The notes beneath the pieces are model-generated. The model was not told the DNA's origin. It saw only the letters and a program-made list of their open reading frames with translations, and ran no database searches. This document shows, one piece after another, positions 2,888 to 64,000 of a stretch of DNA of 64,000 bases. Position 1 is the stretch's first letter; the number at the start of each line of letters is the position of its first letter. Source of the stretch: Clostridiales bacterium (GTDB taxonomy: Bacteria > Bacillota > Clostridia > Lachnospirales > WQUN01); assembly GCA_031287685.1 (NCBI GenBank), contig JAITSQ010000014.1, positions 1 through 64,000 on the forward strand. Direction: 5' to 3'. Both the position numbers and the translations under genes were made by a program.

Positions 2888-2947
2888 ATATGTCCTCCTG
2901 TTTTCCAAAGCGGCGACGGGTATTGCCCGTTTTCCCGCTTGGCTTTG

Positions 2948-3001
2948 CCCGGTGTTTTCATTTGTCTAAAACAAGTTTAGACAAATGAAAACACCCTTCT
3001 T
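2948..3001 (-). repeat. 54-nt modular palindromic repeat, copy R1
   Basis: A nearly perfect hairpin: GGTGTTTTCATTTGTCTAAA, a short loop ACAAG, then its complement. This copy has lost the usual GGGGGC side and is symmetric out to GGTGTTTT/AAAACACC. It is followed by CTTCTTC, the complement of the family's GAAGAAG end. It forms the last codons of the nucleotidyltransferase remnant. Confidence 0.85.
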
Positions 3002-3268: not shown

Positions 3269-5107
3269 TTAATCTTTTATATCTCGTTCAGGCGTAAAAA
3301 ACGTCGCCCCGTCTTCCGACGTCCATTTTTGCGTCTCAAACCACTCTTTGCGAAACAGGCGTTCGGCTTCATAACGCTCGCGCTCACAACCGTCCGTTAT
3401 TTTCAGTTTATATCCCCAAGAGTCAATCACGCCCTCCAAAATCCGGCTGTCAACCTTGCACGAAAAATCCCGGTATCCGTGCGTATACGGCGCGGCGATT
3501 TTATTCTGGCAAGAGTCGAACAGGTTCATATAGAGGCTTGAAGGCATTTTGCCGTGAGTTATGCTCCCCGGGCGCATACGGTAGTAGTATAGTTTTTCCT
3601 GTACGCAGGTTATTTTTTGGCACCGCAAATAAATATCGGGGAGGATAAACGTATCCTCAAACAGGCAGTTCAGCCGAAACCGCAGATTGTCAAATATTTT
3701 GCGGTGGTATAGTTTCACGAAAACAACCGCCGTCGCGAAAGGCATTTTGTCGCAATAGCAACGGAAAACGTCGGGCGCGTCGAAAACGCCCTCAAGGGCA
3801 AACGGGGCTTTTGACATAAAGGTAGGGTCATAACCCTCCTCGAAGACGTAATCAAGGTTGCAGACGCCCATATCGCAATCGTCGTTTATAACAGCGTTGT
3901 AGAGCCGCTCGACAATGGTCGGGGCGACATAGTCGTCGCTGTCGACGCACATAATGTAAAGCCCTTTCGCCAAGTCAAGCCCCGTGTTCCGCGCCGCCGC
4001 CACGCCGCCGTTTTTTTGGTGAACCACTTGTATACGCGCGTCTTTTTCGGCGTACTCGTCGCAAATAAACCCGCTTGTGTCTTTCGAGCCGTCGTCAATC
4101 AGCAGAATCTCCAGACGCTTGTAGGTTTGGTTCATTATTGATTCCACGCACTCCCGCAGATATTTCTCAACATTGTACACAGGCACGATTATCGATATTA
4201 AATCAGCGTCCAGCAAGGGCTCGCCGCAGTTCAGCAAAGAGGGCGCGCCTGTTTTCAGGAGAGGCGCGGACGGTTCGTTTTTGCCTGTCAGGGTAAGTTT
4301 TGTAACGCCGCCGCGCGTGACCCATTTCTGCGCGTCAAACCAAGCGCGGCGTTTGAAAAGTTCCTTTTCGGATTCGGGATTCGCTCCGCCCTCCGTTTGG
4401 ATTTTCGGAAGCCAATAGGAGGAAAGCATCTCGAAAACACGGCGCTCGTGGCGAAAAGAGCAGTCCGAAAAGCCGTTTTTGTATGAAAATTCCGTTTTAT
4501 ATTGGTGCGCGTCCCAAAGGCTTTGTATATGCGCGGAGGTTTTTAAGTAATACGAAAAGTCGTTTGTGGGGTACTTCACGGTATGCAGTATTTCTTTCGC
4601 GCAGAATATTTTACCGGCGCGAAGGAAAACCTGAGAAAGGGTATAAAATTCGCTGTAATAAGAGTCCTCGGGGAAAGACAAGCCCTCGAACAAAGAACGG
4701 CGGAACAGCTTCCCGCCTATTCCGCGCAAAGCGAACGGCTCGTCCTCAAGGTACGCTTGGTATACGTCGCGGGCGGAAAAAACGCCGTCCAGCGCAAGCG
4801 GCCTGTCGGCAAGGTTAAGGTAGGACTGAAAAAGCGACGGGCCAGCCAGTTTCTCAAAATTATAGACGGAGTCCGAAACGGAAATATCCGCGCCGTTCTC
4901 CAGCATAGGAGCGATTAAAGTTTCAAGCAAGGTTTTATCTTCATAATGATTTGACAACGAAAATATGACGTATTCCCCGGACGCCTTCGAGAGCCCCGCG
5001 TTAAGGGCGCGCGCCGAAAACTCCCCGTCCTCGCGGATTACCTCAAAATCCTTGTGGGTTTGATTTTGCGGAAAGGGGCTTTCGCCCACAACTATAACCG
5101 AAATCAT
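3269..5107 (-). CDS. Two-domain GT2 glycosyltransferase, N-terminal domain degenerate
   Basis: 612 residues with two GT-A folds in tandem. The C-terminal half, from about residue 300, is a standard family 2 transferase: LISIIVPVYNVEKYLRECVE, then LLIDDGSKDTSG, RNTGLDLAKG and the metal-binding DSDDY. The N-terminal third starts MISVIVVGESP and keeps ARALNAGLSKASGEYVIF. Where DxD should be it has SLSNHYED, so that copy is probably not catalytic. The start overlaps the stop of the preceding transferase in ATGA (5104-5107), so translation is likely coupled. The three transferases share the ending pattern (R..WF..QKW....G.TK), which suggests they arose by duplication. Likely cytoplasmic or membrane-associated; donor and acceptor are unknown. 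Confidence 0.88.
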   Translation of the reverse strand: MISVIVVGESPFPQNQTHKDFEVIREDGEFSARALNAGLSKASGEYVIFSLSNHYEDKTLLETLIAPMLENGADISVSDSVYNFEKLAGPSLFQSYLNLADRPLALDGVFSARDVYQAYLEDEPFALRGIGGKLFRRSLFEGLSFPEDSYYSEFYTLSQVFLRAGKIFCAKEILHTVKYPTNDFSYYLKTSAHIQSLWDAHQYKTEFSYKNGFSDCSFRHERRVFEMLSSYWLPKIQTEGGANPESEKELFKRRAWFDAQKWVTRGGVTKLTLTGKNEPSAPLLKTGAPSLLNCGEPLLDADLISIIVPVYNVEKYLRECVESIMNQTYKRLEILLIDDGSKDTSGFICDEYAEKDARIQVVHQKNGGVAAARNTGLDLAKGLYIMCVDSDDYVAPTIVERLYNAVINDDCDMGVCNLDYVFEEGYDPTFMSKAPFALEGVFDAPDVFRCYCDKMPFATAVVFVKLYHRKIFDNLRFRLNCLFEDTFILPDIYLRCQKITCVQEKLYYYRMRPGSITHGKMPSSLYMNLFDSCQNKIAAPYTHGYRDFSCKVDSRILEGVIDSWGYKLKITDGCERERYEAERLFRKEWFETQKWTSEDGATFFTPERDIKD

Positions 5108-6042
5108 AAGCCGCCACCATATCTTTCAAGCAGGTTGAGTTTTGTGCGCCCGTTATGAATTATCCACTCCTGCGCCGCGAACCAGGCGCCGCGTTTGTCG
5201 TACTCCGGTTTCCAGACGGCAAGTTCGCCGGGCGGCATATGCGAGAGGTATTCCGCGAAATATGTCATAAATATTTCTATTAACGTTCTGTCAAAACCAT
5301 AGGACGCGTCGCTTAACCCGTTATCATAAAAAGTTATAATCTTTTGGATACGGGAGTCTATAAATTCGCATCTGCGCGCCAAACCGTATTTTTGGTGCAT
5401 TACGCTGCCGGGCTGCTGCACGTAATAGTAATACTCGCCGTCTATGAAAGAAACCGTCTCGCACGCAAGGTATATCCTCGGCAAAATGAGGGTGTCCTCA
5501 AAGGCCCGCCCCACGGCGAAACGTATATTGTCAAAAATGCCCTTTCGGTACAATTTCCCCCAAACGACGGCTGTGATTAGAGGCTCGCGCTCCACAAACT
5601 GGCGGCAAAGCTCAAGCGCGGGCTGCGTCCCGCTTAACTCAATCGGGCTTCCGTCAAGCATTTGGTTCGGCTTGCCGACGATTTCGGCTTTCTTGATTGC
5701 GCTGATATCGGAAGCCCCAAGGGCGTTATACAAATCCTCAACCATAGTTTCCGAAATATAGTCGTCGCTGTCAACAAAGGTAATGTACCCGCCCTCGGCA
5801 AGCTCGATTCCGTCGTTTCTGGCGGCGGATACCCCCGCGTTTTTTTTATGAATGACGACGACGCGCGAATCTTTTTCTTTGTAAGAATCACATATGGCGG
5901 GGCTTGCGTCGGGCGAGCCGTCGTCTACCAAAATCACCCGCAAATCCGTATACGTCTGCGCCAGTATTGAATCCACGCACTTTTCTAAAAACTTCTCAGC
6001 GTTGTAGACAGGCACAACCACTGAAACGGTTTCTTTGCTCAT
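5104..6042 (-). CDS. GT2 family glycosyltransferase
   Basis: 312 residues. The N-terminal GT-A domain is intact: VSVVVPVYNAEKFLEKCVDS, LVDDGSPDASPAICD, VSAARNDGIELAEG and VDSDDYIS for the metal and nucleotide-sugar site. The C-terminal part is helical with a tyrosine-rich stretch GEYYYYVQQPGSVMH, typical of family 2 transferases in capsule and surface-glycan clusters. It overlaps its neighbours by four bases at both ends (ATGA), so the three transferases form one coupled unit. It resembles the 6039-6974 gene closely and is probably a duplicate with altered specificity. Linkage formed and substrate cannot be read from the sequence. Confidence 0.9.
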   Translation of the reverse strand: MSKETVSVVVPVYNAEKFLEKCVDSILAQTYTDLRVILVDDGSPDASPAICDSYKEKDSRVVVIHKKNAGVSAARNDGIELAEGGYITFVDSDDYISETMVEDLYNALGASDISAIKKAEIVGKPNQMLDGSPIELSGTQPALELCRQFVEREPLITAVVWGKLYRKGIFDNIRFAVGRAFEDTLILPRIYLACETVSFIDGEYYYYVQQPGSVMHQKYGLARRCEFIDSRIQKIITFYDNGLSDASYGFDRTLIEIFMTYFAEYLSHMPPGELAVWKPEYDKRGAWFAAQEWIIHNGRTKLNLLERYGGGL

Positions 6043-6974
6043 ATGCTCCCCTCCTGTAATTCCTCCTGAAGAAGCTCAAGTTTTGTGCGGCTGCCGCGCA
6101 CATACCATTTTTGCGCGTCAAACCAACGCTTTCTTGCCGCGAGGCTCCGCTCCGCCGCCTCGTTCCCCTTGGAGAGGTATTTTGCCCAAAGCAGCCTTGA
6201 TTCCAGCAAGGTTCGCTCTTTGTCATAGGACGCGTCGCGAAGCCCGTTATTGTAAAAAACGCGTATTTTGTGTATGCGCGAGTCAATGAATTCCACAAGC
6301 CGCTTGGGGCTGGATTCTTGGTGCATAGCGCTTGAAGCCCTTTGCAAGTAGTAATAATAATCCCCGTCTACGCAAACGCAGGTTTTCGCGCTTGTGTATA
6401 TATACGGCAAAATCCGGGTGTCCTCATAGGGGTGCTCCGTGTCGAAACGCAGAGACGAAAACAATTCGCGTTTATACAGCTTTCCCCATACGACGGAGGC
6501 AAGCAAAGGCTCCTCCTCAAGAAAAGCGCGTCCGACCTCAAGCGCGGGGTGAAGCCCCGTCAGGCGCAAAGGCTTTCTGGATGTGAAAAGCGGCGGTTCA
6601 AAACCCTCCTCCGCGACTATTACGGCGGTAGTTATCGTCGCGAGGTCCGCGCCGTCTTTTTTCAGCGCGTTATGCAAATCCTCCAGCATATTTTCCGCCA
6701 AATAGTCGTCGCCGTCAACGAAAGTTATGTATTCGCCCTCCGCCAAATCTATACCCGTATTCCGCGCCGCCGAAACCCCGGCGTTTTTTTTATGTATGAC
6801 GGTTATCCGGCTGTCTTTTTCCTTGTACGCGTCGCAAATAGCGGGACTCGCGTCGGGCGAGCCGTCGTCAATCAGCAAAATCCGCAGATCGGTATACGTC
6901 TGGCTCAATATTGAATCAATACATTTCGGCAAAAACTTGTCAACCCCGTATATCGGAACTACTACAGATATCAT
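6039..6974 (-). CDS. GT2 family glycosyltransferase
   Basis: 311 residues; first of three coupled family 2 transferases. It shows MISVVVPIYGVDKFLPKCID, LLIDDGSPDASPAICDAY, VSAARNTGIDLAEG and VDGDDYLA, the last being the DxD-like metal site with Gly in the middle. A GAGAGGTG ribosome-binding site lies before the ATG. The C-terminal portion (DGDYYYYLQRASSAMHQ) matches the same region of the next gene. It lies downstream of the GH3 adenylase and a small ORF, all on one strand with short gaps, so it is probably transcribed from the promoter at 8962-8991. Role: transfer of a nucleotide-activated sugar onto a cell-surface or secreted product; specificity unknown. Confidence 0.9.
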   Translation of the reverse strand: MISVVVPIYGVDKFLPKCIDSILSQTYTDLRILLIDDGSPDASPAICDAYKEKDSRITVIHKKNAGVSAARNTGIDLAEGEYITFVDGDDYLAENMLEDLHNALKKDGADLATITTAVIVAEEGFEPPLFTSRKPLRLTGLHPALEVGRAFLEEEPLLASVVWGKLYKRELFSSLRFDTEHPYEDTRILPYIYTSAKTCVCVDGDYYYYLQRASSAMHQESSPKRLVEFIDSRIHKIRVFYNNGLRDASYDKERTLLESRLLWAKYLSKGNEAAERSLAARKRWFDAQKWYVRGSRTKLELLQEELQEGSI

Positions 6975-10986: not shown

Positions 10987-11023
10987 ATTTGACCGGGAGG
11001 CCCGGCTTGCCGTTTTCGGTCTG

Positions 11024-11186
11024 TTCGGCGTTTGAGGTTGTCTAAAAAAGGATTTAGACAACCTCAAGCCCCCTCCTTGCTCGGTGTTTCGGCTTGTCTA
11101 AAAGGATTTAGACAAACCGAAGCCCCCTCCTTGCCCGGTGTTTAAGTCGTCTGAAAAGACTCAGGCGGCTTAAAGCCGCTTTCTTA
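11024..11186 (-). repeat. Tandem array of three modular palindromic repeats (R2a-c)
   Basis: Three units lie end to end: 11024-11079, 11080-11133 (exactly 54 nt) and 11134-11186. Ends are conserved (CTCGGTGTTT, AGCCCCCTCCTTG on the plus strand) while the arms differ: TGAGGTTGTCTAAA, CGGCTTGTCTAAA and TTTAAGTCGTCTGA. In the third unit, differences between the arms are all G-U compatible in RNA. The array touches the stop codon of cellobiose phosphorylase: TAA is the first triplet of the last unit on the coding strand. Confidence 0.9.
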
Positions 11187-13701: not shown

Positions 13702-13808
13702 GTTAAAAAACTCTTTAAGATTTCTCAAAATCGTTTTTCGCGAAACTTACGCAAAGCAACTTGGAAACAGGCTTCAACCGCCGCCGTATTTCCGCGTGCA
13801 GAGCCGGT

Positions 13809-13910
13809 CAAGAAGGGGGCTTTTTGGCGTGGTCGCGAGCGTTTGCAACAGCTTTTTGGCGGAGCCAAAATAGCGAACGCAAACGCGGGGAAGCGCCAAA
13901 AAACACCGGT
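13809..13910 (+). repeat. Expanded modular palindromic repeat (R13) abutting feoB
   Basis: The usual ends (CAAGAAGGGGGCTTT and AAACACCGGT) enclose arms TTTTTGGCG/CGCCAAAAAA. The loop is filled by a second hairpin module at 13836-13888 (GCGTTTGC with GCAAACGC outside, TTTTTGGC with GCCAAAA inside). That module reappears inverted at 63792-63844. Total length is 102 nt, again a multiple of three. The repeat ends at the feoB stop codon. Confidence 0.85.
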
Positions 13911-20596: not shown

Positions 20597-20650
20597 CAAG
20601 AAGGGGGCTTTGGTTTGTCTAAATCCTTTTAGACAAACCTAAACACCGAG
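20597..20650 (+). repeat. 54-nt modular palindromic repeat (R3) after flagellin
   Basis: CAAGAAGGGGGCTTT, arm GGTTTGTCTAAA, short loop, complementary arm, AAACACCGAG; exactly 54 nt. It begins one base after the flagellin stop codon and lies in the same orientation as the gene. Confidence 0.9.
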
Positions 20651-20674
20651 CGCGGCGATTAGACTGACTTATTA

Positions 20675-26442: not shown

Positions 26443-27048
26443 TTATACCGCGGTCGTTTTCAGGTAAGACCCGCTAACGGCCAAAACAAACTGCGACGGT
26501 ATATAAAACACCCAAATAAGCGCGTCAAAAACGCGGCTTACCGGATAACCCGAATAAATATTCATAAGCGCGACGTTCAGGTCGCACAGGAAAAACAGGA
26601 ACATTCCGAGAAACGCCAGGAACGCCTCTTTGCCCCCGCCTTTCCTGAAATTCCGCCACGCGTCGCAAACGTTGGCAATAAGCCCGGCGGCATACGAGGC
26701 GACCAGCGCGGCTTCCAAAGACTTCACCGCTAACACGCCGGGTATAAAGAAGGGGGCTTTGGTTTGTCTAAAAAGATTTAGACAAACCAAAACACCGAGC
26801 AGCCGGAGCGCCGCGCCTTTTCCGCCCGGGTTATACCTGATAAAATACGTAAACTGAGCCGCGTTGAAAAACGCAAGCCCCGGAAGGTTTTCCCCGCGCA
26901 AAACCATAAAATAATCGGCGATTAGCGTGAAAAACATAGCCAGATTAAGCAGCCTCCCGTCGCGTGATTTTTTCACGCGCGACAGGCAAAGCCCCGTTAC
27001 AAACGCGCACGCCACGAGCGCGAATTTAATTACCCTGTCCGCCGCCAT
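26443..27048 (-). CDS. YhhN/TMEM86-like membrane protein carrying an in-frame palindromic repeat
   Basis: 201 residues, mostly hydrophobic with about seven segments. NLAMFFTLIADYFMVLRGE and FLFFLCDLNVALMN fit the two acidic pairs conserved in YhhN proteins (lysoplasmalogenase family), and FYIPSQFVLAVSGSYL resembles their usual end. Enzymatic function here is uncertain. Residues about 84-101 (LGVLVCLNLFRQTKAPFF) are encoded entirely by a 54-nt palindromic repeat. The reading frame passes through without a stop, so the element adds 18 codons between two membrane segments. The gene overlaps the end of murJ by 23 bases. Confidence 0.65.
   Translation of the reverse strand: MAADRVIKFALVACAFVTGLCLSRVKKSRDGRLLNLAMFFTLIADYFMVLRGENLPGLAFFNAAQFTYFIRYNPGGKGAALRLLGVLVCLNLFRQTKAPFFIPGVLAVKSLEAALVASYAAGLIANVCDAWRNFRKGGGKEAFLAFLGMFLFFLCDLNVALMNIYSGYPVSRVFDALIWVFYIPSQFVLAVSGSYLKTTAV
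26746..26799 (+). repeat. 54-nt modular palindromic repeat (R4) inside a coding gene
   Basis: AAAGAAGGGGGCTTT, arm GGTTTGTCTAAA, loop, arm TTTAGACAAACC, AAACACCGAG. The same unit is found between genes elsewhere (for example 55677-55730). Here it lies within the YhhN-like gene on the opposite strand and contributes 18 in-frame codons. Confidence 0.92.
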
Positions 27049-29935: not shown

Positions 29936-30679
29936 TTACGCGGGGACGGCGGCGACCACAATTTCCTTAAAATTCCCGTCCTGCCCCGCCTCCGCCTTAT
30001 TCTGGCGCACAAGCTCCAGAACGGCGCAAAAAGCGGCGACCATTTCTTCCTTGTCGGCTCGCGCGAAAAAATCCCCAAACAGGAAACTCTTTCGCTCACG
30101 CAAAATCCGCTCGATTTCCCGGATTTTATCCTCAACCGTGAAAACCTCCGGCGCGGCGGCGGCAAAGAGCGGCTCATCTTCCGAAGGAGCGCGTTTGCGC
30201 ATTAAATCCGCGAAAAGCCCGCATAACCGGTCTATCCTCACTCCGGCGAGCGCCTCCTCCGCGCGCGGCTTCGGCAGCCGCTCCGCCCGGTCCAAATACT
30301 CCGGCTCCGGCCCTTTTTCATAAGAACCCGCCGCCGCTTCATACTTTTCGCGCAAAATCCCCGTAACTTCCTTAAACCGTTTATACTCCAAGAGCATTGC
30401 CACGAGCCGCTCACGCGGGTCCTGCTCCTCGCCCTCCGGGGCCGCCTTGGGCTTTTTCGGCAGAAGATACGCCGACTTTATCTCCGTCAGCGTCGCCGCC
30501 ATTAACAGGAACGAGCTTAACGAATCCATATCCGTCACGCTCTCCAAATAGGCTATATACTGGCTCGTCAGCTCCGCTATCGGAATATCCGATATTTCCA
30601 TCTGGTTTTTGTCGAGAAGGTGAAAAAGCAGCTCGAACGGGCCTTCAAAGGCTTCCGTCTTTATAATCAGCCCTTCCAT
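29936..30679 (-). CDS. scpA: Segregation and condensation protein A (kleisin)
   Basis: 247 residues. MEGLIIKTEAFEGPFELLFH and LLDKNQMEISDIPIAELTSQ then YIAYLE is the N-terminal kleisin signature that contacts the SMC neck. The C-terminal winged helix (AFCAVLELVRQNKAEAGQDG) binds the SMC head. It links the two SMC arms and recruits ScpB. Its start lies directly against the stop of the upstream DAHP synthase gene, so it is translated at the end of a longer operon. A MITE follows its stop. Confidence 0.93.
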   Translation of the reverse strand: MEGLIIKTEAFEGPFELLFHLLDKNQMEISDIPIAELTSQYIAYLESVTDMDSLSSFLLMAATLTEIKSAYLLPKKPKAAPEGEEQDPRERLVAMLLEYKRFKEVTGILREKYEAAAGSYEKGPEPEYLDRAERLPKPRAEEALAGVRIDRLCGLFADLMRKRAPSEDEPLFAAAAPEVFTVEDKIREIERILRERKSFLFGDFFARADKEEMVAAFCAVLELVRQNKAEAGQDGNFKEIVVAAVPA

Positions 30680-31708
30680 TTATACCCGCTCCGCTATTTC
30701 ATAAATCAAAGTCTCCGTCTGTCCCCAGCCAAGGCAGCCGTCGGTTATGGACTGCCCGTATACCCCGCCGGTAATATCCTGCGCCCCGCCCTTGATATAA
30801 CTTTCGATTAAAAGCCCTTTTACAAGCCGGCGAATCCCGGAATTAAGGCGGCGGCTCTGCATAACGTCAAGGGCGATGCGCGGCTGCTCCGCGAAGTTCT
30901 TCCCGCTGTTGGCGTGGTTTGTGTCGATGATAACGGCGGGGTGCGCCAACCCCGATTTTTCGTACATTTCTCGCGCGGTCAGAATATCCTCGTAATGATA
31001 ATTAGGGACGGACGCGCCGCTTTTATCCACGAATCCGCGCATAATCGCGTGCGCCGCCGGATTGCCTGTCGTGGCGGCCTCGTTCCTATGATAGATAAAC
31101 GCCTGCGGGCTTTGCGCCTGCCTGATGGAGGCGAACATAACGGACAAATCGCCGCTTGTGGGGTTTTTCAGCCCCACGGGCACGGACACTCCGCTTGCCG
31201 CCATAAGGTGCTGCTTATCCTCAACGGAGCGCGCGCCCACGGCCACGTAGCTCAAAACGTCGTCTACATACACGTGATTATCGGGATAAAGCATTTCGTC
31301 GGCGGCGGTCAGGCGCGATTCGGCCATTACGCGCAGGTGCGTCCGGCGTATGCTGTAAATCCCCGCGAGGATGTTCGGCTCCTCCTCTGGCTTCGGCTGG
31401 TGGAGCATACCCTTATACCCCGTGCCGGTGGTGCGCGGTTTACAAGTGTATATCCGCGGAATTACTATGAGCTTCTCCGAAACGCGCTCCTGCGCCTTCG
31501 CCAAGCGGGACACATAGTCGCAGACCGCGTCCTCGTTATCCGCCGAACAAGGCCCCACGATTATCAAAAACTTCCCGCTCTCCCCTTTTATGACGGCTTC
31601 TATCTCCGCGTCCCGGCGCCTCTTTATTTCTTTCATTTCGGCGGAGAGCGGCGTGTCGGCCAGTATCTCCGAAAGCGGGGGGATTGCGCGTTTTTTAACG
31701 AAACTCAC
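30680..31708 (-). CDS. aroF: DAHP synthase (second of two tandem copies)
   Basis: 342 residues from the GTG at 31708 (VSFVKKRAIPPLSEIL), chosen for the AGGGGG upstream and because it then has exactly the length of its paralogue. [38 protein letters not shown] and [18 protein letters not shown] are class I DAHP synthase motifs for phosphoenolpyruvate and metal binding. It joins phosphoenolpyruvate and erythrose-4-phosphate, the first step to aromatic amino acids. The neighbour upstream is a close duplicate, which suggests isoenzymes with different feedback control. A gap of 11 bases separates them. Confidence 0.93.
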   Translation of the reverse strand: MSFVKKRAIPPLSEILADTPLSAEMKEIKRRRDAEIEAVIKGESGKFLIIVGPCSADNEDAVCDYVSRLAKAQERVSEKLIVIPRIYTCKPRTTGTGYKGMLHQPKPEEEPNILAGIYSIRRTHLRVMAESRLTAADEMLYPDNHVYVDDVLSYVAVGARSVEDKQHLMAASGVSVPVGLKNPTSGDLSVMFASIRQAQSPQAFIYHRNEAATTGNPAAHAIMRGFVDKSGASVPNYHYEDILTAREMYEKSGLAHPAVIIDTNHANSGKNFAEQPRIALDVMQSRRLNSGIRRLVKGLLIESYIKGGAQDITGGVYGQSITDGCLGWGQTETLIYEIAERV

Positions 31709-31719
31709 AGCGTTTCCCC

Positions 31720-32748
31720 CTAACACCCGTCCGCTATCTGAAAAAGCAGTTTCTCCGTCTGCTCCCAGCTAAGGCAGCCGTCGGTTATCGACTGTCCGTA
31801 CACCCCGCCGTTTACTTTCTGGGCGCCCTCCTCTATATAGCTCTCGATGAGCAGGCCCTTCACCATAGCGCGGACGCTCGCGTCGTACCTCCGGCTGTGG
31901 AGGATTTCTTTGGCGATGCGCGGCTGCTCAAGGTAATTCTTGCCGCTGTTGGCGTGGTTGGTGTCTATTATTATCGCTGGGTTAGCCAGCCCGCGCGCCT
32001 CGTAAAGCTCCGCCGCGCGGACAATGTCCTCGTAATGATAATTCGGGATCGACTCTCCGTGCTTATTCGTCGAGCCGCGCATAATCGCGTGAGCGAGCGG
32101 GTTTCCGTCCGTCTCCACCTCGTGCCCGTAATAAATGAACGTATGGGAGGACTGCGCGGCGTAAATCGCGTTAAACATAACGGACAAATCGCCGCTTGTG
32201 GGGTTTTTCATACCCGACGGCACGGAAAAGCCGCTGCACACCAAGCGGTGCTGCTGATTCTCCACCGAGCGCGCCCCTATGGCCACATAGCTCAGAATAT
32301 CCTCAACATACACGTAATTATCGGGATACAGCATTTCGTCGGCGGCGGTCAGCCCAGTCTCGGCTATAACCCGGAGATGCGTCCGCCGTATGCTGTAAAT
32401 GCCTTCAAGGATATTCGGCGCCTCCTCCGGGTTGGGCTGGTGGAGCATACCCTTATAGCCCTCCCCGGTGGTGCGGGGTTTGTTCGTGTACACCCGGGGG
32501 ACGATAAGCAGCCTTTCCGAAAGCTCGTCCTGCGCCTTCGCCAGGCGCGACACATAGTCGCAAACCGCGTCCTCGTTGTCCGCGGAGCACGGCCCCACGA
32601 TAACCAGGAATTTGTCCGACTTTCCGCTTATTACGTCCGCCACGAGCTTGTCGCGCTTTTTTTTGACCGCCGAAAGCTCCGGCGAGACGCTCGTAGCCCT
32701 TAAAATTTCCTCCAGGGGGGGGATTGCGCGTTTATAAATAAAGCTCAT
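31720..32748 (-). CDS. aroF: DAHP synthase (first of two tandem copies)
   Basis: 342 residues starting [20 protein letters not shown]. It has the same motifs as its neighbour: [40 protein letters not shown] and [20 protein letters not shown]. The two align without gaps over their whole length; the best-conserved parts are around the active site, and many differences lie in surface regions that set allosteric inhibition in this family. It overlaps the upstream GH130 gene by four bases. Why an aromatic biosynthesis pair follows sugar phosphorylase genes is unclear; probably a chance operon. Confidence 0.93.
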
Positions 32749-35160: not shown

Positions 35161-35328
35161 TATCGCAATTTTCAAAATCGCGGCTCGGTGTTTTGAGCTT
35201 CCAAGAGAAGCTCAAAGCCCCCTCCTTGACTGCCGGCGTTTTTTCGGGCCTAATGCCGCCCGAAAAAGCCGCCTTCTTGTCGCCGATTTTCCGCTCCGCG
35301 CCAGTCAACGTTTTTTAAAATTGCTATA
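35161..35328 (-). mobile_element. MITE-like element with TATAGCAATTTT termini (T1)
   Basis: 168 bp. The left end is TATCGCAATTTTCAAAATCG; the right end is the complement of TATAGCAATTTTAAAAAACG. The ends start with TA, as expected if TA is the target. Inside are two modular palindromic repeats. The right-end block (TTGACTGGCGCGGAGCGGAA) recurs at the left end of the element at 62699-62937, in opposite orientation. It lies just upstream of the epimerase ribosome-binding site. Confidence 0.8.
35184..35279 (-). repeat. Two modular palindromic repeats inside the T1 element (R5a, R5b)
   Basis: R5a at 35184-35228 is 45 nt: CTCGGTGTTTTGAGCTTC, loop, GAAGCTCAAAGCCCCC. R5b at 35232-35279 is 48 nt with arms TTTTTTCGGGC/GCCCGAAAAA and the variant ends GCCGGCG and GCCGCCTTCTTG. 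Each unit is a multiple of three long, but the arms are unrelated to each other. Confidence 0.85.
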
Positions 35329-35376
35329 TCTAAGATTATTTTACCATTAAATCGGCGCGCGGGCAAGAATTTATTA

Positions 35377-37538: not shown

Positions 37539-37570
37539 AAATCAAATTCCTCCTTAAGATAATGGTTTTG

Positions 37571-37678
37571 CTCGGTGTTTCGGCTTGTCTAAAAGGATTT
37601 AGACAAACCGAAGCCCCCTTCTTGCTCGGTGTTTCCATTTGTCTAAAACAAGTGTAGACAAACCGAAGCCCCCTCTTT
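37571..37678 (-). repeat. Two tandem 54-nt modular palindromic repeats (R6a, R6b)
   Basis: R6a (37571-37624) has the same arms as unit R2b at 11080-11133, including the same single mismatch (CGGCTTG against CAAACCG). R6b (37625-37678) has a left arm of the CATTTGTCTAAA type but a right arm TAGACAAACCG of the other type, so the arms no longer match fully. It looks like a recombinant of two copies. Confidence 0.88.
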
Positions 37679-37811
37679 ACTATCCTCGCTTGCCTTCAGC
37701 CCAAGGAACCGTCCCGCGTTCCTTCGCGGCTCTCTTTTTGAACTCCTTCCTGATTTTTTCTTAGAACCTGTTCCCAGCAGGCAGAAACGCCATCTTTATT
37801 TAAGTATAACT

Positions 37812-37887
37812 ATTTTTCGACAAAAAATCAAGGGTTTTTCGCAATAAATTCCCTAATCATATAACCTTACAACCGTTTTTATCACCG
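37812..37887. repeat. Direct repeat, left copy, flanking the chemoreceptor gene
   Basis: A 76-bp stretch matching 40426-40501 at about 71 positions by my count. It contains a second copy of the last codons and stop of the Gx gene (leftward reading VIKTVVRLYD, stop). The region 37680-37811 shows no gene. Confidence 0.85.
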
Positions 37888-40317: not shown

Positions 40318-40425
40318 GAATCACCTTCCTTATTAACACAATACATATGCGCGCTATCAGTATTGTTTCGATAATATTTTTTCTGATTTCTAACTTTCAT
40401 TTAAATTAATAGCTTTATTATAATA

Positions 40426-40501
40426 ATTTTTCGACAAAAAATCAAGGGCTTTTCGCAATAAATTTCCTAATCATATAATTTTACAACCGTTTTTATGACC
40501 G
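40426..40501. repeat. Direct repeat, right copy, at the end of the Gx gene
   Basis: Matches 37812-37887. It spans the last codons and stop of the Gx gene plus about 41 bases downstream, so this is the original place and the left copy is the duplicate. Confidence 0.85.
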
Positions 40502-53710: not shown

Positions 53711-53875
53711 AAAAGAGGGGATTGGGGCCGCCGGAACCTTTCCGCCCGGTGTCTGAGCTTGCCTGAAGAGCTTTAGGCAAGCCAGGCTCAAGCCCCTTCG
53801 CCGGCGGCCCAAAACACCGAGCAAGAAGGAGGCTTTGGGGCGCAGGCGCCTCAAAACACCGAGCAAGAAGGAGGG
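53711..53875 (+). repeat. Nested and tandem modular palindromic repeats (R7)
   Basis: An outer unit (about 53711-53821, arms GGGGCCGCCGG/CCGGCGGCCC, end AAAACACCGAG) holds in its loop a complete inverted unit (53745-53800, CCCGGTGTCTGAGCTTGCCT and its complement). A 42-nt unit follows (53822-53863, arms TTTGGGGCGC/GCGCCTCAAA), then only the first bases CAAGAAGGAGGG of another. This last piece acts as ribosome-binding site for the permease gene at 53884. Confidence 0.85.
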
Positions 53876-53883
53876 TTCCAAAA

Positions 53884-54798
53884 TTGGATAAAGTAATGAG
53901 CGATAAAAAAGCCGTGGTCATATTCCTGCTGCCTTCGTTTATCCTGTTCTGCGCGGTCATAATAATCCCGATATTTATGTCCGCGGGGTACAGCCTGACC
54001 GAATGGGACGGCACGCGGGCCAAAGTCTTTATCGGCCTGCAAAACTACAAGGAGCTGTTCAGCAGCCCCGTTTTCCTCAAGTCCATGCTTAATTCCCTGA
54101 TTATCGCGGTCGCGTCCGTGCTTATACAGCTGCCGCTCTCGCTCCTGCTGGCGCTGTGCATAGCCCACGGCGTCAAAGGGGAGAAATTCTTCATAACCGT
54201 GTTCTTTATACCCGTAATCTTGGCCAGCGTGGTCATCGGCCAGCTCTGGGCGCGCATTTACAACCAGAACGGCCTGCTCAACCTCTTTCTGCGCGCGCTG
54301 GGCGATAAAGACGCGAAAACCGCCTGGCTCGGCGGTATGAAAACCGCGCTCCCCGCCGTAATCGTCCCGATTTTATGGCAATACGTCGGGTATCACATGC
54401 TCCTGTTTTATTCCGGCATCCGCTCAATTTCCCAGGATATTTTTGAGGCCGCCAAAATCGACGGCGCCTCTTTCTGGAGAACCTGCTCCTCAATCACCAT
54501 ACCCCTGCTCAAGCCGATTATAGAAGTCTCCGTCACTTTCGCCGTGGTCGGCTCGATGAAAACCTACGACCTCGTGAAAGTCCTGACGAACGGCGGGCCG
54601 GCCTCCGCGTCGGAGGTTATAACGACGCTCCTTGTGCGCACAATGTTTTACCCCGGCAACCGCTACGGCTACGGCTCCGCTATGGCCATAGCGCTCATCG
54701 CGGAGTGTTTCCTGCTCTACCTGGCGCTTGGGCGGATTTTCCGCGAAAAGCCCGAAAAGCTCGAAAAACCCCTTAAAGACGAAAGGAGCGCCGCCTGA
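53884..54798 (+). CDS. Sugar ABC transporter permease (MalF type)
   Basis: 304 residues from a TTG at 53884. The only ribosome-binding site, AAGGAGGG, is part of the truncated palindromic repeat directly upstream. Six membrane segments. The ATPase-contact loop ISQDIFEAAKIDGASFWRTC, then SSITIPLLKP, is the EAA motif of sugar permeases. Typical start SFILFCAVIIIPIFMSAGYS, then LTEWDG. It overlaps the second permease by one base in ATGA-like fashion, so both are made together. Confidence 0.92.
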   Translation: MDKVMSDKKAVVIFLLPSFILFCAVIIIPIFMSAGYSLTEWDGTRAKVFIGLQNYKELFSSPVFLKSMLNSLIIAVASVLIQLPLSLLLALCIAHGVKGEKFFITVFFIPVILASVVIGQLWARIYNQNGLLNLFLRALGDKDAKTAWLGGMKTALPAVIVPILWQYVGYHMLLFYSGIRSISQDIFEAAKIDGASFWRTCSSITIPLLKPIIEVSVTFAVVGSMKTYDLVKVLTNGGPASASEVITTLLVRTMFYPGNRYGYGSAMAIALIAECFLLYLALGRIFREKPEKLEKPLKDERSAA

Positions 54799-55637
54799 TG
54801 AAAAAATTATCTAAGCTCAGCCCCGGGCGGGCGGTAATGTATCTCCTGCTGTCGGCGTGGGCGTTTATACAGCTTTTCCCGCTGTACTGGATGTTCACCT
54901 TCTCACTTAAGTCCAATCAGGAAATTTTCGGCGAAAACCCCGTCGGCTTGCCCAAAAACTGGCTCTGGAGCAACTATACGAACGTCGTCGAAAACGCGCA
55001 TATGCTGACGTACTTTTTCAACAGCGTTATCGTCACCGTCGCCAGCATCGCCGTCGTTTCCGTTTTCGGTATGATGGCCACCTTCGCCCTGACCAGGATG
55101 GTCTGGCGCGGGCGCGGCGCAATGCGCATGTTCTATATGCTCGGCCTGTCCATACCCATACACGCCGCGCTCCTGCCCGTGTTCATAATGCTCCGCGATA
55201 TGAAGCTCCTCAACAGCCACCTGTCGCTGGTTATTCCGTACTCGGCGTTCGCCCTCTCGATGGCCATCCTGATTTTTATCGGCTTCATCAGCGGCATACC
55301 CACGGAGCTTGAGGAATCCGCCTGCCTTGACGGCTGCTCCATATACGGCATATTCTTCCGGATAATCCTGCCGCTTATGCGCCCGGCCATTTCCGTCGTG
55401 GCGATATTTACCTTCCTTCAGTGCTGGAACGAACTGCTCTTCGCCTCCACCTACGCCACGGATTGGCATTACCGCACCATCACTGTGGGCATAATGGAGA
55501 TGACCGGCCAATTCCGCACGGAATGGGGCCCTATCGGCGCGGGGCTTATGGCGGCCACTCTGCCCACGCTCCTGACATATGTGCTGCTCAGCGACAAAGT
55601 GCGCTCAAGCCTCGTGCTCGGCGCGGTTAAGGGTTAA
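54798..55637 (+). CDS. Sugar ABC transporter permease (MalG type)
   Basis: 279 residues, six membrane segments. WAFIQLFPLYWMFTFSLKSN is the common start; the EAA loop is IPTELEESACLDGCSIYGIF, then FRIILPLMRP. It pairs with the upstream permease to form the channel. GAAAGGAG precedes the ATG. The stop TAA runs straight into palindromic repeat R8 (TAAGAAGGGGGC). Confidence 0.93.
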   Translation: MKKLSKLSPGRAVMYLLLSAWAFIQLFPLYWMFTFSLKSNQEIFGENPVGLPKNWLWSNYTNVVENAHMLTYFFNSVIVTVASIAVVSVFGMMATFALTRMVWRGRGAMRMFYMLGLSIPIHAALLPVFIMLRDMKLLNSHLSLVIPYSAFALSMAILIFIGFISGIPTELEESACLDGCSIYGIFFRIILPLMRPAISVVAIFTFLQCWNELLFASTYATDWHYRTITVGIMEMTGQFRTEWGPIGAGLMAATLPTLLTYVLLSDKVRSSLVLGAVKG

Positions 55638-55730
55638 GAAGGGGGCTTTGAGGCGCAGGCGCCTCAAAACACCGAGCAAGAAGGGGGCTTTGGTTTGTCT
55701 AAATCTTTTTAGACAAACCAAAACACCGAG
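55635..55730 (+). repeat. Two tandem modular palindromic repeats (R8a, R8b)
   Basis: R8a (55635-55676) is 42 nt with arms TTTGAGGCGC/GCGCCTCAAA; R8b (55677-55730) is 54 nt with arms GGTTTGTCTAAA/TTTAGACAAACC. They share their ends exactly (AAGAAGGGGGCTTT, AAACACCGAGCAA) but not their arms. R8a begins within the stop codon of the second permease. Confidence 0.92.
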
Positions 55731-55762
55731 CAAAAACATAACTGAATATTAAGGATGATTAA

Positions 55763-59204: not shown

Positions 59205-59259
59205 GAAGAAGAGGGCTTTGGTGTGTCTAAATCTTTTTTAGACAAACCAAAACACCGAG
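59205..59259 (+). repeat. Modular palindromic repeat R10 inside an IS5 transposase remnant
   Basis: GAAGAAGAGGGCTTT, arms GGTGTGTCTAAA/TTTAGACAAACC, AAACACCGAG; 55 nt because of one extra T in the loop. On the minus strand it follows directly after the transposase text ending VIDAS. Confidence 0.85.
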
Positions 59260-59476
59260 CAAAGAGGCGTCTATCACAAGCCATTCGAAATTCGGCCGCT
59301 CAATAAGTATTTCAAGCAATTTTTCTCATCGGCCCGCGCCGCGCCAGCGGCGGAAGCGCTGGTGAACCGTACCCGTGCGGAGAATCCCAAAAAACGCCGA
59401 GCCACGGCGTTGATAAATCGGCGGGTAACGCCCAAACTTCGCCGGTTATGCCGTGGCGGTGATAGTCGGGTTTCAT
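59260..59476 (-). pseudogene. IS5-family transposase remnant
   Basis: From ATG 59476: MKPDYHRHGITGEVWALPAD. In a second frame comes RRFINAV; in others TVHQRFRRWRGAGR and EKLLEILIERPNFEWLVIDA. Joined, these follow the N-terminal third of IS5-group transposases (T..VWAL, NRRFINA, HRRF.RW, LL..L...P.FEWL.IDAS). At least two frameshifts and loss of the segment around the W..LP motif; the rest is cut off by repeat R10. No inverted ends were identified. Confidence 0.75.
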
Positions 59477-62698: not shown

Positions 62699-62937
62699 TA
62701 TAGCAATTTTACAAAACGCTGACTGGCGCGGAGCGGAAAATCAGCGGCAAGAAGGCGGCTTTTTCGGCGGGCAGTAGCGCCGAAAAAACGCCGGGCAAGA
62801 AGGTGGCTTTTTCGGCGGGCAGCAGCGCCGAAAAAACGCCGTTTTAAGCCGTTTTTCGCGGAGGAGGGGGCTTTCATTTGTCTAAACTTGCTTTAGACAA
62901 ATGAAAACACCGAGCCGCGATTTTGAAAATTGCTATA
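62699..62937 (+). mobile_element. MITE-like element with TATAGCAATTTT termini (T2)
   Basis: 239 bp. Ends: TATAGCAATTTTACAAAACG on the left and the complement of TATAGCAATTTTCAAAATCG on the right. It carries three modular repeats: 62748-62795 and 62796-62843 (48 nt each, arms TTTTTCGGCG/CGCCGAAAAA) and 62861-62914 (54 nt, arms CATTTGTCTAAA/TTTAGACAAATG). It separates VTC from its DUF4956 partner and ends 19 bases before that start codon. Confidence 0.85.
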
Positions 62938-62956
62938 ACGAAGGGAAGTGTGTTTT

Positions 62957-63655: not shown

Positions 63656-63662
63656 CAAACAT

Positions 63663-64000
63663 TATCGCAATTTTCAAAATCGTAGACTGCCGGCGTTGCT
63701 CGGTGTTTTCATTTATCTAAAGCAAGTTTAGACAAATGAAAGCCCCCTCCTTCGCGAAAAACGGCTTAAAATCGGTGTTTTTTCGGCACTCCCGCGTTTG
63801 CGTTCGCTATTTTGGCTCCGCCAAAAAGCTGTTGCAAACGCTCGTGACCCTCTCGCAAGCTTCGCTTGCTGGCCCTCCGACGCAGGTTTTGTGCTTGAGG
63901 CCGCACAAAACCTAAACGCGTCTCCGGGTTAAAACCGGGCGGCCGTGTTGGCCTGCCGAAAAAGCCGCCTTCTTGCCCGGCGTTTTTTCGGGCCTAATGC
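63663..64000 (-). mobile_element. MITE-like element with TATCGCAATTTT terminus (T3), cut by the window end
   Basis: Starts eight bases after the DUF4956 stop with TATCGCAATTTTCAAAATCG. Contains a 54-nt unit (63699-63752). Next is a giant unit of about 200 nt (63772-63975, outer arms TTTTTTCGGCA/TGCCGAAAAA) whose loop is packed with smaller hairpins: the 53-bp module shared with 13836-13888, an AGGTTTTGTGC/GCACAAAACCT hairpin and CCGGGTT/AACCGGG-type stems. A further unit of the R5b type begins at 63976 and runs off the window. Confidence 0.8.

Follow-up and report, generated by a model that had tools for sequence, protein, structure and literature searches.

A family of short hairpin repeats with in-frame copies in a YhhN-family gene and other protein-coding genes of a Clostridiales bacterium

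The window, meaning the whole 64-kb stretch of DNA analysed here, carries an intact open reading frame (ORF) of 201 codons on its minus strand, with a complete 54-nt palindromic unit inside it (Table 1). The ORF gives a full-length match to the Pfam YhhN family (PF07947), in which residues 6-192 align to profile positions 4-181/182 (E 5.9e-11; above the cut-off). Because the match spans these residues, the two halves that flank the repeat belong to one gene. The unit consists of a 28-nt core between the ends AAGAAGGGGGCTTT and AAAACACCGAGC, and its fold z-score against shuffled sequence is -5.9 on the plus strand and -8.8 on the minus strand. A preliminary description of this DNA had placed a palindromic repeat within a YhhN-like gene and called it nearly identical to an intergenic copy. 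Both observations hold, and only the coordinates had to be moved by one base for each unit, their borders now being fixed from tandem copies. Of their 54 bases the two units share 50, and an inverted loop (AAAAAGATTT versus AAATCTTTTT) accounts for the four differences.

Table 1. The YhhN-family gene and the hairpin units of the 64-kb window
Feature	Position	Strand	Remarks
YhhN-family membrane protein gene, 201 aa	26443..27048	-	contains the unit in frame; residues 84-101 = LGVLVCLNLFRQTKAPFF
54-nt palindromic unit AAGAAGGGGGCTTT-GGTTTGTCTAAAAAGATTTAGACAAACC-AAAACACCGAGC	26747..26800	+	antisense to the YhhN host gene; core inverted relative to most copies
Intergenic 54-nt unit	55678..55731	+	50/54 identical to 26747-26800
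42-nt family unit	55636..55677	+	head to tail with 55678-55731; first AA (55636-55637) completes the TAA of gene 54798-55637
55-nt unit	2947..3001	-	
Three head-to-tail units (56, 54, 53 nt)	11023..11185	-	cores different
54-nt unit	20598..20651	+	
45-nt unit	35183..35227	-	within larger composite repeat
Two head-to-tail units (54, 55 nt)	37570..37678	-	
42-nt unit	53823..53864	+	
55-nt unit	59206..59260	+	
Two 48-nt-type units	62749..62841	+	nested in larger repeat with ends TATAGCAATTTT / AAAATTGCTATA
55-nt unit	62861..62915	+	nested in the larger repeat that also holds the 62749..62841 units
55-nt unit	63698..63752	-	nested in second copy of larger repeat

The palindromic unit in the YhhN gene is not a chance arrangement. 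It is a real member of a hairpin family with an estimated ~490 copies in this ~1.9-Mb genome, or about 1.3% of its DNA. The assembly comprises 1.88 Mb in 37 contigs and is 97% complete. A pattern describing the unit from end to end has 223 exact copies in the whole genome, and the reversed pattern used as a control has none. A mismatch-tolerant scan, which covered 1.17 Mb, identified 303 copies; within an 834-kb subset it returned 229 copies, and the control gave 0 at an equal mismatch limit. The ends of the family are near-invariant (AAGAAGGNGGCTT...AAACRCCGRGC), and the hairpin design includes an outer stem GGNG/CRCC plus a GC bulge. The cores are interchangeable and come in length types, with units mainly of 48, 54, 55 and 45 nt and nearly all copies between 42 and 56 nt. 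Strong covariation is evident in the stems of both types that were compared. For the 54-nt type (26 copies), pairing holds in 96.6% of cells and 62 cells show a double change (16 when shuffled), and the 48-nt type has 143 double-change cells (51 when shuffled).

Some small hairpins nest inside a larger composite repeat, copies of which occupy positions 35161-35330, 62699-62940 and 63660-64000. These copies supply both filled and empty hairpin insertion sites. A further repeat module (GCGAGCGTTTGCAACAGCTTTTTGGCGGAGCCAAAATAGCGAAC), found at 13806-13902 and 63778-63849, adjoins the left end of the hairpin and has several copies elsewhere in the genome.

When filled and empty sites in paralogous larger repeats of the same genome are compared, the net gains are exactly 45, 54 and 102 nt. 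The 45-nt gain is at GGCAGTC^CACG, with at most 1 nt of ambiguity, the 54-nt gain at GGCGGCC^NNGTTGG, and the 102-nt gain, which represents a 54+48 pair, at TTCAAT^AAGCTG. As read from these sites, hairpin insertion is precise and occurs without target duplication. Adjacent copies invariably share the same orientation, head to tail (57 of 57 pairs), and 50 of the 57 have a gap of zero. The two cores are identical in just 6 of 55 adjacent pairs, and so the arrays are not only local duplications. About 75% of solitary copies have AA directly after them. Twelve copies in the 1.17 Mb are located at the TAA stop codon of an upstream gene, and because all of them insert in register as T^AA, the stop is restored by the element's own AA. 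In gaps between co-directional genes, the sense orientation is the commoner one (105 versus 38).

About 90% of copies are intergenic. Only 29 of the 303 reside wholly within called ORFs versus 266 expected at random (p 4e-213), with coding DNA making up 88% of the sample. At least 17 genes carry convincing copies that are in frame and open, on which basis short selfish DNA appears to add pieces to working proteins. The named hosts encode YhhN, PolC, FolC, an NRPS, a SpoIIE-type phosphatase, an M15 peptidase, LarC, ComEA, DacA (in its signal peptide) and a TPR protein, and several others are unnamed. The PolC insert is composed of two tandem 48-nt units that encode 32 extra residues, leaving 56 residues between anchors that are separated by 24 in 24 of 29 relatives, and the family matches break exactly at the insert. 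By this alignment, the insert is a clean 32-residue gain in an essential DNA polymerase. FolC has 40 residues between its anchors versus a median of 26 in relatives, and the NRPS gene carries one 51-nt copy and three tandem 48-nt copies. A Phos_pyr_kin kinase (pyridoxine/phosphomethylpyrimidine; L164, G000:C30:56618-57790) carries, midway through its domain, a composite insert of roughly 150 residues that is in frame and contains a 55-nt unit.

A test of flanking sequence that ignored gene calls identified nine sites where coding sequence extends up to both borders of the unit. Seven are in frame and open, LarC proved on inspection to be in frame as well (eight of nine in total), and at the remaining site the copy occupies the gap between two genes. 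The 1.17-Mb sample yielded no gene that a copy had broken. One candidate split gene, at C15:58861, was rejected because the copy lies between grpE-like and dnaK-like genes, and four further sites (C14:44374, C14:23403, C10:33796 and C26:72984), which lie in genes by coincidence, were discarded because they match the family poorly.

The preliminary description had also stressed that the unit is open in its frame and has a length divisible by three. The unit is indeed open, but this openness belongs to the core. Most intergenic copies of the 54-nt type are open in just two of the six frames (60/71 and 61/71), and all eight in-gene copies of this type keep those same two frames open. Likewise, multiples of three are not enriched in genes (23 of 29 copies in ORFs versus 201 of 274 other copies; Fisher p 0.66), and we therefore dropped divisibility by three as a gene-specific argument.

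We favor an explanation, with a probability of roughly 0.8, in which the hairpin is mobile, inserts precisely, and survives between genes, at TAA stops, or in frame within genes. The hairpin would be a non-autonomous DNA element of 45-55 nt whose insertion leaves no target duplication. Its hairpin ends, the lack of target duplication and the head-to-tail arrays suggest that it moves as a folded single strand. The mobilising enzyme would be supplied in trans or would since have been lost. Y1_Tnp (PF01797) has 0 matches in this 97%-complete genome, the control search being positive in 5 of 14 genomes, and a genome search found no IS110 transposase. Seven tyrosine-recombinase domains are present and are at most candidates for this role. 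Copies would persist mostly where they are harmless, which includes intergenic regions, stop codons restored by the element and gene interiors where the frame is kept open, and frame-breaking insertions would be removed by purifying selection. The repeat peptides would be translated and tolerated. In the YhhN protein, the antisense frame of the 54-nt type would be read as LGVLVCLNLFRQTKAPFF and take up the place where the third membrane helix lies. It is also conceivable that a selfish hairpin became gene-compatible, having evolved to add harmless in-frame peptides and even a membrane helix. This idea draws on the common unit lengths of 45, 48 and 54 nt, which are divisible by three and have frames open on both strands, compared with only 1 in 10 copies divisible by three in the sister genus. 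We consider this further step rather unlikely.

The effect of the repeat on the YhhN protein differs from what was first proposed, namely 18 residues added between membrane segments and visible as a clean gap against orthologues. Hydropathy analysis predicts a membrane segment at residues 77-93 (KGAALRLLGVLVCLNLF) that is gone when the insert is removed. Relatives have a segment at this place, and thus the repeat-encoded LGVLVCLNLF (ten residues) probably forms part of predicted helix 3, not a loop. Between the anchors QFTYFIR and SY there are 55 residues here and 39-69 in 27 relatives (median about 46). Subtraction of the 18 repeat residues leaves 37, which is below every one of these relatives, and therefore the protein either has lost native residues or had an ancestor that was exceptionally short here. 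A single-sequence AlphaFold model of the protein (pLDDT 47) is too poor for use. Antisense readings of the 54-nt unit occur in hydrophobic settings in three of four cases (YhhN, the C26:8190 membrane protein and the DacA signal peptide), which is a small number.

The short native region, together with an insertion inside a predicted helix, could also mean that the YhhN gene is decaying and is open merely by chance, with no functional protein behind the insertion. However, the ORF is unbroken, its codon use resembles that of coding sequence and it matches YhhN from end to end, and similar insertions exist in PolC and FolC, whose genes a cell cannot easily lose. We thus regard decay as quite unlikely.

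Hairpins with stems kept through compensatory change might instead be functional RNAs or regulatory elements, such as mRNA stabilisers, attenuators or RNase sites, with the in-gene copies as by-products. The prevalence of the sense orientation between co-directional genes and the many copies directly after a stop codon are in keeping with such a role. However, copies occur in both orientations, some of them within genes, others as tandem arrays or inside other repeats, an Rfam search of the window returned no match, and the family, although plentiful in a single genome, is sporadic across the order. Moreover, transposition that copies or depends on hairpins would maintain the stems as well. 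These considerations make a regulatory role improbable as the primary explanation. It is far less probable that ribosomes bypass the in-gene copies, as in yeast mitochondria, so that no KEGAFSAGSSAEKTPS-like peptide is added. The element does have a hairpin shape, and work cited in PMC6649704 describes mitochondrial genes of Magnusiomyces whose palindromic elements are bypassed, but bypassing would not need simple in-gene copies to be in frame and stop-free, as all of them are, nor would it confine the 54-nt copies to the two open frames. Finally, a chimera of reads misjoined at a repeat has next to no probability even for a repeat-rich genome in 37 contigs, because the flanks of the insertions in YhhN and PolC form one protein domain in the correct order and frame, which misjoins would not give.

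A precisely inserting mobile hairpin, which remains our preferred reading, has counterparts in several known systems. Earlier work has described palindromic repeats that lie in frame within genes of Rickettsia, Wolbachia, enterobacteria and Methanocaldococcus. The Rickettsia palindromic elements (RPEs; Ogata 2000), as summarized in PMC2229807, are hairpin repeats of an alphaproteobacterium that are situated between genes and, in 19 reading frames, in frame in conserved genes; they are 105-146 bp long, form stable stem-loops and are probably neutral or mildly harmful. The hairpin repeat described here is similarly intergenic and in frame inside conserved protein genes, but its units of 45-55 nt fall short of the RPE length, and it differs in its near-invariant ends, interchangeable cores and head-to-tail arrays and in a host genome that carries PolC, a gene pointing to Bacillota. 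Set against RPEs by description, the hairpin behaves like one without being classed as one. The Rickettsia parallel drawn in the preliminary description is therefore apt for the genome as a whole, given in-frame copies in at least 17 genes, a clean PolC gap and the lack of any broken gene found, but has to be revised for the YhhN gene itself, where the gap is not clean.

Judged by their titles as cited in PMC2229807, the protein-coding palindromic repeats of Wolbachia (Ogata 2005) and Methanocaldococcus jannaschii (Suyama 2005) are likewise palindromic with coding potential, in other lineages. The enterobacterial ERIC/IRU (RU-1), RU-2 and RU-3 are small non-autonomous repeats of 103-168 bp whose open frames fuse in frame with genes, including those for new membrane or exported proteins, and ERIC and RU-2 make target duplications (PMC2759123, PMC2229807). 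In-frame fusion is shared with the hairpin studied here, whereas its unit is shorter and leaves no target duplication. Thus, the behaviour is the same as that of RPEs and ERIC/RU, and the differences lie in the unit size, the modular cores, the arrays and the absence of target duplication.

REP/BIME sequences associated with RAYT (Y1) transposases are short intergenic hairpins that are clustered and carry a fixed tag beside the stem. Our family resembles them in these features and in insertion without target duplication, but it has regular in-frame intragenic copies, its genome lacks Y1_Tnp, and its ends are AAGAAGG / GAGC instead of the GTAG tag of REPs (PMC3733652). Unlike a MITE, the hairpin has unpaired ends (AAGAA / GAGC) and no signature of terminal inverted repeats and target duplication, and its net gain equals the unit length.

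None of 37 other genomes of the GTDB family contains the exact pattern, and a core pattern is present in 3 of 392 genomes of the order. With a covariance model, diverged copies are recovered in G016, which has 10 with a triple array among them, and in G028, G058 and G001. Copies in G016, the sister genus, have an outer stem GGAG/CTCC and are 46-59 nt long. A repeat-pattern scan of named genomes gave one isolated match, in an FCPU426 MAG, and a search of viral contigs for the family gave no match. In terms of this distribution, the family is an old and sporadic one that multiplied in this genome. The triple array in G016 (L172 1111-1287) is a head-to-tail arrangement of a diverged 59-nt version, and most unit lengths in that genome are not multiples of three.

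Few lineages have documented in-frame palindromic repeats, and to these the present genome contributes one in which the copies number in the hundreds and the cores are modular. Its other features are the clean gain in an essential replicative polymerase, in-frame copies in tandem arrays, and the composite kinase insert of ~150 residues. Together these copies form an extensive natural collection in which to test how proteins acquire new peptides from selfish DNA and to ask how a ~50-nt hairpin moves precisely without a recognised transposase.

The window contains other repeats as well. An 88-nt repeat unrelated to the hairpin family is present at 37800-37887 and 40414-40501, with the two copies 90% identical. 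Diverged direct repeats of several hundred bases at 30668-31433 and 31708-32473 (1040-nt spacing), and others at 3891-6963, are probably duplicated genes.
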